From Caulobacteraceae bacterium (GTDB lineage Bacteria; Pseudomonadota; Alphaproteobacteria; Caulobacterales; Caulobacteraceae), in assembly GCA_947447115.1 (NCBI GenBank), contig CANFKD010000006.1, forward strand, positions 1 through 44,527: a DNA stretch of 44,527 nucleotides. Reading direction: 5' to 3'. This document shows positions 11,467-36,010 of the stretch, piece after piece. Position 1 is the stretch's first letter. Each line of letters opens with the position of its first letter. Below the pieces are notes generated by a model. That model saw only the letters and a program-made list of their open reading frames with translations, had not been told where the DNA came from and made no database searches. Position numbers and translations under genes: made by a program.

Positions 11467-11708
11467 ACTTCCCCCAGAGGGGGAAGATTTGCGCATCGAT
11501 GATCTTCCCCCTCTGGGGGAAGTGGCCCGAAGGGCCGAAGGGGGTCTTGTTTTCTACCCCGTGTTCCCCGCGAAGGCGGGGACCCAGACCCATTCTCTCA
11601 GACGGAAAGTGACCCGCTGGATCACCGTCTGCATGGAGGTCGCGGTGGAGAGGAGGGTGGGCATACCCCCCTCTCCCAACCCTCTCCCCCTCAAGGGGGG
11701 AAAGGGCT
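11467..11708. repeat. Intergenic repeat cluster A (inverted repeat plus two dispersed repeat types)
   Basis: The 11433-11723 gap between two convergent genes holds no gene. Bases 11467-11488 and 11502-11523 are a perfect 22-bp inverted repeat (core CTTCCCCCAGAGGGGGAAG) around a 13-base loop. Bases 11561-11605 carry the GTTCCCCGCGAAGGCGGGG type also found at 20064, 21198 and 29702. Bases 11666-11708 carry the CTCTCCCAACCCTCTCCC type also at 29780 and 35845. These are dispersed short GC-rich repeats that can form hairpins and may act as bidirectional terminators here. Confidence 0.75.
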
Positions 11709-18448: not shown

Positions 18449-19954
18449 ATGGCCGACACCGCAACACTGGCAAAGTCCAGCGACACCACCGCAACCGAGC
18501 ATTTCGATGTGCTGATCGTCGGGGCGGGCATTTCTGGCGTGGGCGGCGCCTATCACCTCAAGGATCAGTGCCCGGGCAAGAGCTTTGTGGTGCTGGAGAC
18601 GCAAGAAAGTTTTGGCGGCACCTGGCTGACCCACACCTATCCGGGCGTTCGTTCGGACAGTGACCTCTATACCTTCGGCTATCGCTTCAAGCCTTGGGTC
18701 GGTACCCCGATCGCGTCGGCCGAAGAGATCCTGAAATATATGGGCGAGGTGATCGAAGAGAACGATCTGGATCGCCACATCCGATATGGCCACAAGATCC
18801 TGTCGGCCAGTTGGTCGGGCAAGGACAATCTCTGGACCATCACGGCTGTCAATAAGACCACGGGCGAGAGCCGCGTCTTCACGACCAACTTCCTGTGGAT
18901 GTGCCAAGGCTATTACCGCCACGATGAGGGCTATACGCCCGAATGGCAGGGCATGGACCAATATAAGGGCCAGATCATCCATCCCCAAAGCTGGCCCAAA
19001 GACCTTGCCTATAGGGGCAAGAAGGTGGTGGTCATCGGGTCTGGTGCGACAGCCGCGACACTGGTTCCAGCCATTGCCGCCGATTGTGAACATGTGACGC
19101 TGCTCCAGCGTTCGCCGACCTATTTCATCCCGGGCCGCAATGGCAATGACCTGGTCGACAATCTGCGCAAGCTCGAGGTCAAGGAAGAGTGGATCCACGA
19201 GATTGCCCGCCGCCAGATCCTGTTCGATCAGGGTGAATTTACCCGCCGGTCCATGGAGGAACCGGATGTGGTGCGCGAAGAGCTGCTCTCCGGCGTTCGC
19301 GCCTTCCTGCCCGAAGAGACCGTGCAAAAGCACTTTGCGCCGAGCTATCGCCCTTGGCGTCAGCGCATCGCCTTTGTGCCGGACGGCGATATTTTCCAAG
19401 GCATAGCCTCGGGCAAGGCCAGTGTCGTGACCGACGAGATCGAGCGCTTCACCGAAAAGGGCATAATGCTGAAGTCGGGCACCGAGCTTGAGGCCGACAT
19501 CATCATCACCGCGACGGGCTTTAATCTGAACGTGCTGGGCGATATCCATTTCTCGATCAATGGCGAGGCCTTGGACTTTTCCAAGACCGTCACCTATCGC
19601 GGCATGATGTTTACCGGCGTACCCAACATGATCTGGGTGTTCGGTTATTTCCGTGCCAGTTGGACCCTGCGCGCCGATCTGATCGGAGACTTTGTCGCGC
19701 GGTTGCTCAACCACATGGACCAGAAGGGCGTGAAGGCCGTCACCCCGACCTTGCGGCCGGAAGACAAGGACATGCCCATGTTGCCTTGGATGGACCCCGA
19801 GGACTTCAACCCCGGCTATCTGATGCGCGGCATGCACCTTCTGCCGAAGCGCGGCGATAAGCCTGAATGGCAGCACACCCAAGACTATTGGGCCGAGAAG
19901 GACCTGTTCCCACAGATCGATCTCGACGAGGCGACGTTCCAATATAGCCAGTAA
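18449..19954 (+). CDS. Class B flavin monooxygenase, Baeyer-Villiger type
   Basis: The 501-aa protein has an FAD Rossmann motif GAGISG at 25-30, the segment FGGTWLTHTYPGVRSDSDLY, an FxGxxxHxxxWP-type fingerprint at 182-193 read as YKGQIIHPQSWP, and an NADPH Rossmann motif GSGATAATL from about 197. The Tyr in the first fingerprint position is a mild deviation. Such enzymes insert oxygen next to a carbonyl or oxidise heteroatoms, using NADPH and O2. GGAGAGG before ATG 18449 is a good SD. A conserved SD style and proximity to a second such enzyme at 21336 and to hydrolases suggest ketone catabolism. Substrate unknown. Confidence 0.88.
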   Translation: MADTATLAKSSDTTATEHFDVLIVGAGISGVGGAYHLKDQCPGKSFVVLETQESFGGTWLTHTYPGVRSDSDLYTFGYRFKPWVGTPIASAEEILKYMGEVIEENDLDRHIRYGHKILSASWSGKDNLWTITAVNKTTGESRVFTTNFLWMCQGYYRHDEGYTPEWQGMDQYKGQIIHPQSWPKDLAYRGKKVVVIGSGATAATLVPAIAADCEHVTLLQRSPTYFIPGRNGNDLVDNLRKLEVKEEWIHEIARRQILFDQGEFTRRSMEEPDVVREELLSGVRAFLPEETVQKHFAPSYRPWRQRIAFVPDGDIFQGIASGKASVVTDEIERFTEKGIMLKSGTELEADIIITATGFNLNVLGDIHFSINGEALDFSKTVTYRGMMFTGVPNMIWVFGYFRASWTLRADLIGDFVARLLNHMDQKGVKAVTPTLRPEDKDMPMLPWMDPEDFNPGYLMRGMHLLPKRGDKPEWQHTQDYWAEKDLFPQIDLDEATFQYSQ

Positions 19955-19963
19955 AACAAGGCC

Positions 19964-20146
19964 CTCACTTAGGCCCTCTCCGACAGGCAGAGGGCTTCTC
20001 GGTTCTAGCCCTCGCCCCCTTCAGGGGGAGAGGGTTGGGTGAGGGGCATCCACACACGCTCAACCGCGTTCCCTGCGAAAGCGGGGATCCAGCGGGTCGA
20101 TGACCGCCTGAGTGAAAGGTTCAGGGTCCCCGCCTTCGCGGGGAAC
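19964..20146. repeat. Intergenic repeat cluster B, proximal part
   Basis: The 384-base gap 19955-20338 has no gene. Bases 19968-20045 hold a GCCCTC...GGGAGAGGGTTGGGTGAGGGG hairpin-type repeat. Bases 20064-20146 hold an imperfect inverted pair of the GTTCCCCGCGAAGGCGGGG type (left arm diverged, right arm at 20122-20146 matching the copies at 29702-29969). These recur in at least five gaps of the window. Confidence 0.72.
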
Positions 20147-20165
20147 ACGGATATAGGGTGGGGGG

Positions 20166-20260
20166 CTTCCTCGTGCTTCGACAGGCTCAGCATGAGGAAG
20201 ATTGATAGATCACCCACCGCCCATTCATCCTCATCCTGAGCCTGTCGAAGGACGAGGATG
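20166..20260 (+). repeat. REPIN-like element, copy 1 (upstream of the TauD gene)
   Basis: The 95-nt element consists of two inverted arms built on CTTCGACAGGCTCAGCATGA and its complement-like partner CATCCTGAGCCTGTCGAAGG, separated by a variable middle. It is nearly identical to the reverse complement of 21227-21320: 78 of 79 bases outside a 15-16-base variable centre. The arrangement is that of REP doublets (REPINs) mobilised in trans by RAYT transposases; no such transposase is in the window. Confidence 0.75.
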
Positions 20261-20338
20261 GCCCCGAAAGGAAACCCTTTTCCCCCACCGACTTTTGCGT
20301 GACTATAGGCTCAAACAAGAACATCCGAGGGAACGACC

Positions 20339-21187
20339 ATGGGCCAATCCACCATCACGGTGACACCGTCAGGACAGGCTTGCGGGGCCACGGTTACGGG
20401 TGTTGATCTGACCAAGCCGCTGAGCGCCGAACAGGTCGCGGACATCCGCGCTGCTTGGCTAGAGCACCATGTGCTGGCCTTTCCCGGTCAGGACATCAGC
20501 GACGATGATCAAGAACGGTTCACCATCGCCTTTGGCGGCTTTGGCGATGATCCCTTCATCGCGCCGATTGAGGGCCGCAAGCATGTGATCGCGGTCAAGC
20601 GGATGGCGGATGAGACCTCGCCCCTGTTTGCCGAAAACTGGCACAGTGACTGGAGCTTTCAGGCCCGCCCCCCTGCGGGGACCTGCCTCTATGGCATCAC
20701 CATCCCGCCAATGGGCGGGGACACGCTCTTTTCCAATCAGCATGCCGCGCTGGACGCCATGCCTGACGCCATGCGCGCCAAGCTTGAGGGCAAGATGGCG
20801 ATCCATTCGGCCAAGAAGGCCTATGCGCCTGAAGGCTCCTATGGCGAAGGTGATATTGCCCGCCGCTCGATGGATATCCGTCCCTCACGCGCCGCTGAGG
20901 CCAGCCAGAGTCACCCCCTGATCCGCGCCCACCCCGAGACCGGACGTCTGGGGCTTTTCAGCTGTCTTGGCTATATTGTCGGGCTTGAGGGCATGGCGGA
21001 CGAGGAAGCCATGCCGCTGTTGATGGAACTCTATCGCTGGCAGGGCAGCGAGGCGTTCCAGTACCGCCATCGCTGGGAAAAGGGCACGCTGCTGATGTGG
21101 GACAACCGCTCTGTGCTTCATGCCGCGACCGGCGGCTATGATGGCTATGACCGTTTGCTGCACAGAACGACCATCGCGGCGTTCTAA
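20339..21187 (+). CDS. TauD/TfdA-family Fe(II)/alpha-ketoglutarate-dependent dioxygenase
   Basis: The 282-aa protein has the TauD/TfdA jelly-roll fold. The metal triad appears as His102 and Asp104 in ENWHSDWSF and His261 in NRSVLHAATGG, with the ketoglutarate-binding Arg near residue 276 in LLHRTTIAAF. Members hydroxylate taurine, 2,4-D, alkyl sulfates or other small acids, releasing sulfite or similar groups. GAGGGAA precedes the ATG. It stands alone, flanked by inverted REPIN-like elements at 20166-20260 and 21227-21320, and converges with the monooxygenase at 21336. No sulfonate transporter is adjacent, so the substrate is open. Confidence 0.9.
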   Translation: MGQSTITVTPSGQACGATVTGVDLTKPLSAEQVADIRAAWLEHHVLAFPGQDISDDDQERFTIAFGGFGDDPFIAPIEGRKHVIAVKRMADETSPLFAENWHSDWSFQARPPAGTCLYGITIPPMGGDTLFSNQHAALDAMPDAMRAKLEGKMAIHSAKKAYAPEGSYGEGDIARRSMDIRPSRAAEASQSHPLIRAHPETGRLGLFSCLGYIVGLEGMADEEAMPLLMELYRWQGSEAFQYRHRWEKGTLLMWDNRSVLHAATGGYDGYDRLLHRTTIAAF

Positions 21188-21226
21188 GCACCCCTCCGCG
21201 TTCCCCGCGAAGGTGAGGGAGGAGAT

Positions 21227-21320
21227 CATCCTCGTCCTTCGACAGGCTCAGGATGAGGATGAATGGAAAGCACCGTTCTCTCAATCTTCCTCATGCTGAG
21301 CTTGTCGAAGCACGAGGAAG
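21227..21320 (-). repeat. REPIN-like element, copy 2 (downstream of the TauD gene, inverted)
   Basis: The 94-nt element is the inverted partner of 20166-20260 with one mismatch outside its variable centre. It lies in the short gap between the convergent TauD and monooxygenase genes, where its hairpins could act as a bidirectional terminator. A fragment of the GTTCCCCGCGAAGG repeat type precedes it near 21198-21215. Confidence 0.75.
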
Positions 21321-21335
21321 TCCCAAAGACAGAGC

Positions 21336-23153
<1,818 letters not shown>

Positions 23154-23239
23154 GGCGGCGTCTCCCTTATGTTTTGACACAGCGTGAGGGTTGACGCCGC
23201 GTCAGGTCAAGCCTTGCGATTGGTCAAAGGGCTCAGACC

Positions 23240-29701: not shown

Positions 29702-29969
29702 CCGCGTTCCCCGCGAAGGCGGGGACCCAGACCCTTTCACTCAGGCGGTGAGCGTGATGAGTAAAAGAAAACAAGAAAGGCCCTCACCCAACCCTCTCCC
29801 ACAGGGAGAGGGCTTATTTGTTCTAGCCCTCGCCCCCTTCAGGGGGAGAGGGTTGGGTGAGGGGGTCATCCACGCACTCTCCGCCGCATTCCAACGAAAG
29901 CATTGGTCCAGCGGGCCGCTTCCCGTCTGAGTGAAAGGGTCTGGGTCCCCGCCTTCGCGGGGAACGCGG
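29702..29969. repeat. Intergenic repeat cluster D, nested inverted repeats
   Basis: The 566-base gap 29602-30167 has no gene. Bases 29702-29748 and 29923-29969 form an inverted repeat with 46 of 47 matching, of the GTTCCCCGCGAAGGCGGGG type. Between them a second hairpin pair is nested: CCCTCACCCAACCCTCTCCC at 29781-29800 and its complement within 29845-29865. The enclosed 29875-29920 segment is a diverged further copy. The rest of the gap up to 30167 holds the operators and promoter region of the efflux operon. Confidence 0.75.
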
Positions 29970-35844: not shown

Positions 35845-36010
35845 GGCCCTCACCCAACCCTCTCCCTCAGGGAGAGGGCTAAGAACGGCTAAGCCCTCGC
35901 CCCCTTGGGGGAGAGGGTTGGGTGAGGGGGTGCGCCCAAAACAAGGCCCCCTTATGCTCCGCATCGCTTCCCCCTCTGGGGGAAGTACCCGCGCAGCGGG
36001 GGTAGGGGGT
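35845..36010. repeat. Intergenic repeat cluster E
   Basis: The 274-base gap after the efflux operon contains GGCCCTCACCCAACCCTCTC at 35845 and its inverted partner ending near 35930 (GAGAGGGTTGGGTGAGGGGG). It also holds CTTCCCCCTCTGGGGGAAGT at 35968-35987, the same type as cluster A. They can fold into hairpins that may end the efflux transcript. Confidence 0.72.

Follow-up and report, generated by a model that had tools for sequence, protein, structure and literature searches.

REPIN-like hairpin doublets on either side of a tauD gene belong to a repeat family with no detected RAYT in its genus and a hairpin loop common to several phyla

A REPIN joins two inverted REP hairpins through a spacer and occurs in dozens of copies, and the part of the article available to us links such elements to RAYT transposases (Bertels and Rainey 2011, PMC3116915). 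CGTC-tagged REPs occur mostly in Alphaproteobacteria and altogether in several phyla (Di Nocera et al. 2013, PMC3733652). As described in the available part of that paper, they comprise four families with stems of 8-9 bp, loops of mostly 4-5 nt, an unpaired tag, for which CCTC and TGTC also occur, and a tail that is mostly CCA. The same text has them mainly as facing dimers, often heterodimers, and reports no association with transposase genes (PMC3733652).

The window analysed here is a stretch of 44,527 nt from a Caulobacteraceae bacterium whose genome assembly (G000) is 2.55 Mb long and 84% complete. A sequence-only reading had picked out a tauD gene bracketed by near-identical inverted elements, each of them an inverted doublet, and alignment bears this out. 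Positions 20166-20260 match the reverse complement of 21227-21320 in two blocks, each about 40 bases long, that flank a variable centre and contain a single mismatch in all. The inverted halves are 20166-20200 and 20226-20260 in the upstream element, and 21227-21261 and 21286-21320 in the downstream one. Each element measures 94-95 bp and carries two unlike hairpin arms of 35 nt, called A and B. Over these two arms the upstream and downstream elements are identical at 69 of 70 bases. Every arm consists of a 12-bp stem and an 11-nt loop: arm A reads CTTCCTCGTGCT-TCGACARGCTC-AGCATGAGGAAG, and arm B, which is inverted in the element, reads CATCCTCGTCCT-TCGACAGGCTC-AGGATGAGGATG. The stems of the two arms differ by compensatory changes around one loop. 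In RNA folding two inner pairs are added, which reduces the loop to 4 nt and creates a bulge of 3 nt. The two complete elements fold as RNA with -57.2 and -54.5 kcal/mol. Rfam returned no match at the gathering score anywhere in the window and 16 below-threshold matches in 19940-21350.

Table 1 Repeats and gene at the tauD locus, in window coordinates (family labels C and D are ours).
Feature	Position	Strand	Remarks
Palindromic repeat, family D	20009..20046		second exact copy 29827-29864
Inverted doublet, family C, GTTCCCCGCGAAGGCGGGGA type	20068..20146		
Arm A, upstream REPIN	20166..20200	+	12-bp stem, 11-nt loop TCGACAGGCTC
Spacer, upstream REPIN (25 nt)	20201..20225		
Arm B, upstream REPIN, inverted	20226..20260	-	
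TauD/TfdA-family dioxygenase gene tauD, 282 aa	20339..21187	+	PF02668, E 5.1e-61
Degenerate half of family C repeat, 3 mismatches	21200..21219	+	
Arm B, downstream REPIN	21227..21261	+	
Spacer, downstream REPIN (24 nt)	21262..21285		
Arm A, downstream REPIN, inverted	21286..21320	-	half-element also at site in G003; decayed in G002

The TauD protein scores above the Pfam cut-off and below the NCBIfam cut-off for taurine dioxygenase. The gene has an FMO-like gene on the same strand as its neighbour on one side and a convergent flavin monooxygenase gene on the other; these two flavin monooxygenase genes, at 18449-19954 and 21336-23180 (the latter downstream), thus bracket tauD. The best NCBIfam match of the downstream one is PtlE, the pentalenolactone D synthase model NF045818, matched over its full length with 847 bits and below its cut-off of 1100 bits. 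The window also holds at least three further short palindromic families, labelled C, D and E here, at 11468-11522, 11563-11705, 20009-20146, 29706-29965 and 35967-35985. Yet another, family F (GCGTCATTGCGAG type), occurs in the spacers flanking tauD in three genomes of the same genus, G002, G003 and G005. With family F in these spacers and further families in the window, the tauD spacers are mosaics that differ between congeners.

Both REPIN copies of the window are intergenic and have many relatives in the genome. The exact 15-nt core, CTTCGACARGCTCAG, was found 65 times in G000 and its reversed control not once, which together with the length of the matching blocks excludes chance as the source of the match. 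The loci read in G000 comprise 26 facing doublets, 25 of type A+B and one with a B-like second arm that has a changed stem base. Hence the element is frequent, as the sequence-only reading had allowed, with dozens of copies, and the tauD pair is no closer than many others: when 24 of the 26 doublets were compared, 38 of 276 copy pairs matched at 69 or more of the 70 arm bases, and the upstream tauD copy is identical over both arms (70/70) to four doublets elsewhere in G000. Since near-identity is usual in the family, it does not tie the two tauD copies to each other. Exact cores occur in four of the other genus genomes (38 in G001, 88 in G002, 14 in G003 and 9 in G005) and were not found in G004 and G006, which with G000 makes five carriers of the family among the seven genomes of the genus that were searched. 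Among the matches listed, exact-stem facing doublets in G001, G002 and G005 are A+B in 30 of 33 cases, B+B in two and mixed in one. The two B+B homodimers lie at G002:C5:3039-3127 and G002:C49:1220-1308, and with the mixed doublet, also from G002, they show that the A+B rule is not absolute.

The stems vary in a way that preserves pairing. We compared 62 distinct arms taken from five genomes of the genus. Pair 10/26 was GC or CG in 60 of them, pair 8/28 was G-T or A-T in 60, and pair 2/34 was TA, AT, CG or GC in 46. The outer pairs are often imperfect, the outermost (1/35) being C-G in just 36 of the 62. The G-T at 8/28 pairs on the strand that displays TCGACARGCTC and becomes A-C on the opposite strand, and folding with either RNA or DNA parameters gives the TCGACARGCTC strand the greater stability. 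Pairing on this strand only and its greater folding stability suggest that the hairpin formed there is the one that matters. Because the core served to find these arms, conservation of the loop is in part imposed. When the stem was prescribed and the loop left free, the matches listed for the genus (two of them from G000) had this loop or differed from it by one or two changes.

The tauD locus in congeners bears directly on how the two elements came to flank the gene. Orthologues with 98% amino-acid identity are found in G002, G003 and G005, in the same place, gene order and orientation, while those of G004 and G006 are less similar (84-86%), lie in a different neighbourhood and have no core in the loci read. 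The upstream REPIN occupies the same site in G002 and is missing in G003 and G005, which carry other palindromic repeats there. At the downstream site G003 retains the arm-A half only, at the same position and with the same outer flank, and in G002 both halves are decayed with other repeats between them. G005 has neither element at tauD, so that one of the three congeners with collinear tauD, itself 97% complete, is without both. Because the elements differ in presence across relatives, the upstream and downstream copies have separate histories. The congener loci compared yielded neither a clean empty site nor a target duplication, as other palindromic repeats occupy these spacers in the relatives; insertion is therefore read from presence and absence. 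We conclude that the two tauD elements are very probably ordinary REPIN-like short non-autonomous repeats: A+B facing doublets of a kind that spreads between genes as a single unit, which reached the two sides of tauD independently and have no joint action. This agrees with the independent insertions of a frequent REPIN that the sequence-only reading had entertained, as congeners have none, one or parts of two elements.

The same reading had proposed that the segment could invert or move as a cassette, with the two REPINs as boundaries through which tauD is moved or inverted, whether the REPINs recombine with each other or a transposase acts on the pair. In favour of such a cassette are the opposite orientation of the copies and their agreement at 69 of 70 arm bases, but equally close or closer pairs are common in the genome, the two copies differ in presence across relatives, and three congeners have tauD collinear and in unchanged orientation, even without the elements. 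All aligned blocks of at least 200 bases run in one direction per relative, so tauD is not inverted. We consider the cassette extremely improbable. That reading had also held that hundreds of element copies together with an unchanged tauD locus in relatives lacking them would speak against it: the copies number dozens rather than hundreds, and tauD keeps its place and orientation in a relative without the elements. It is unlikely, though less so, that the elements are kept for a local function, with the upstream hairpin regulating tauD and the downstream one serving as a bidirectional terminator or a stabiliser of the mRNA 3' end. The positions would suit such roles, with the upstream copy ending 78 nt before the tauD start, the downstream copy lying between two convergent stops and both folding strongly; however, relatives with 98% identical TauD hold other repeats or only parts of the elements at these sites, and a consensus scan of 19900-21400 gave no promoter-like site and a single terminator-like site, away from the REPIN elements.

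A further explanation keeps the repeat family but has it moved by a RAYT that is missing from incomplete assemblies. The REPIN structure speaks for this, given the link between REPINs and RAYTs in the available part of PMC3116915, as does the frequency of Y1 transposases elsewhere. Nevertheless, the profile PF01797 (Y1 transposase, the group containing RAYTs) had no match in any of the seven genus genomes, that of the window included, of which two are 97% complete and five are below 90%; the same search was positive in 5 of 14 control genomes, E. coli among them. The RAYT transposase that the sequence-only reading had presumed for the element was thus not found in the window's genome or six congeners with this profile. 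In a survey of 385 genomes of the class, Y1 was present in 72 and the core in 58, and core-rich genomes were not enriched for it, with Y1 in 5 of the 19 genomes carrying at least ten cores versus 67 of the 366 others (Fisher p = 0.37). At the nine Y1 loci of the five core-rich genomes that do bear the gene, no core was found within one mismatch, and one match with two mismatches was seen. Among 29 named core-bearing genomes, 13 have Y1, and a core lies beside one of the 20 Y1 loci read (of at least 50 Y1 matches in these 13 genomes), roughly 0.8-1 kb from the gene. In all, profiles across 60 genus, family and order genomes, the 385 class genomes and the 29 named genomes, plus the flanks of Y1 genes, revealed no RAYT partner. 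An overlooked RAYT is accordingly quite unlikely, more so than a local function and less so than the cassette.

If the two elements are ordinary non-autonomous doublets, each arm would fold, in single-stranded DNA, on the strand that displays TCGACARGCTC as its loop, and the doublet would be copied or moved by an activity acting in trans. The downstream copy, between convergent genes, would in addition be transcribed at the tauD 3' end as a strong hairpin. We infer the mobility of the doublet as a unit, the strand that is recognised and any effect on the mRNA.

The core is also found well outside the genus. Facing core pairs were detected in at least 116 stretches of named genomes. The taxonomic groups of the cross-phylum stretches were taken from record titles, and many are metagenome-assembled genomes (MAGs); the 80 stretches listed include Alpha-, Beta- and Gammaproteobacteria, Deltaproteobacteria, Bacteroidota, Actinomycetota, Chloroflexota, Treponema, Calditrichota and Eremiobacterota. 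Carriers that are strains and not MAGs include Chryseobacterium takakiae, Microbacterium galbinum, Plantibacter flavus and Marinicella litoralis. The core occurs 12 to 595 times per genome in all 29 named genomes searched, a proportion that is not a prevalence because the genomes were chosen for having a core pair. A core pair was also present in 14 stretches of viral contigs. From 76 of the 80 loci we obtained 84 readable doublets with 156 distinct arms, some doublets sharing an arm. Watson-Crick pairs were formed at 9/27 in 136 and at 10/26 in 147 of the 156 arms, each with at least three pair types, versus 48 (9/27) and 18 (10/26) in a control with the partners slid two columns outward. Outer pairs, at positions 1-8, were formed in 48 to 94 of the 156 arms, with slid controls reaching up to 75. 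The 3' tail varies by lineage, reading GAGCGG in Novosphingobium and GACCCAGT in Microbacterium. No gene recurs strongly as a neighbour at the 80 cross-phylum loci; the largest protein cluster, an ABC-type ATPase judged by eye, covered 8 loci and the next 6, which we took as chance.

In Microbacterium galbinum we counted 203 exact cores, 117 of them on the plus strand. Of these 117, the 100 listed all lie before 1.82 Mb of the 3.46-Mb chromosome, and ten 20-kb stretches beyond 1.85 Mb contained five cores. The sites seem to be clustered regionally and not by strand. Strand polarity along the chromosome was considered and dismissed, as both strands occur, with 53 plus and 27 minus sites in ten stretches picked for plus sites.

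In the literature searched, 14-nt strings of the core retrieved no paper, and among the papers listed for 11-12-nt strings none was found to treat the repeat, as judged by title and the start of the abstract. It is possible, if rather doubtful, that REP hairpins marked by CTTCGACARGCTCAG form a pan-bacterial superfamily, present in Alphaproteobacteria, Bacteroidota, Actinomycetota, Chloroflexota and others, with a fixed loop, covarying stems, lineage-specific tails and facing pairs, spread by a conserved non-Y1 factor that recognises the loop rather than the stem.

The pair flanking tauD is real and ordinary in kind. The cassette was a false lead that can be set aside, as tauD is not shown to be one, and the part worth following is the repeat family, with no transposase detected in the genus and a loop common across phyla. 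A genus that has REP doublets but no RAYT detected, and a hairpin loop that recurs in several phyla, makes a sharp case: what moves REPs without a transposase becomes testable, because a common factor should bind the shared loop in unrelated hosts.

BIMEs of enterobacteria are mosaics of REPs in alternating orientation and in this are like the doublets of the tauD family, from which they appear to differ in sequence and in their proposed partners. Compared with REPINs as presented in the available part of PMC3116915, the family shares the arrangement of two REP hairpins inverted about a spacer, a copy number in the dozens and the apparent spread as doublets, but it is without a detected RAYT in the genus genomes searched, and its arms are of two distinct types in nearly every doublet. 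Compared with CGTC-tagged REPs, in so far as the available text of PMC3733652 describes them, its stem of 12 bp and loop of 11 nt are different, and its CCTC pairs with GAGG, so that the end bases are paired and leave no unpaired tag. Like them, it occurs in several phyla and forms facing doublets of mostly unlike arms, and no dedicated transposase was seen beside the repeat in the loci read. On text description only (PMC3733652, in the part available) the tauD repeat family thus resembles the CGTC-tagged REPs and may be related to them.
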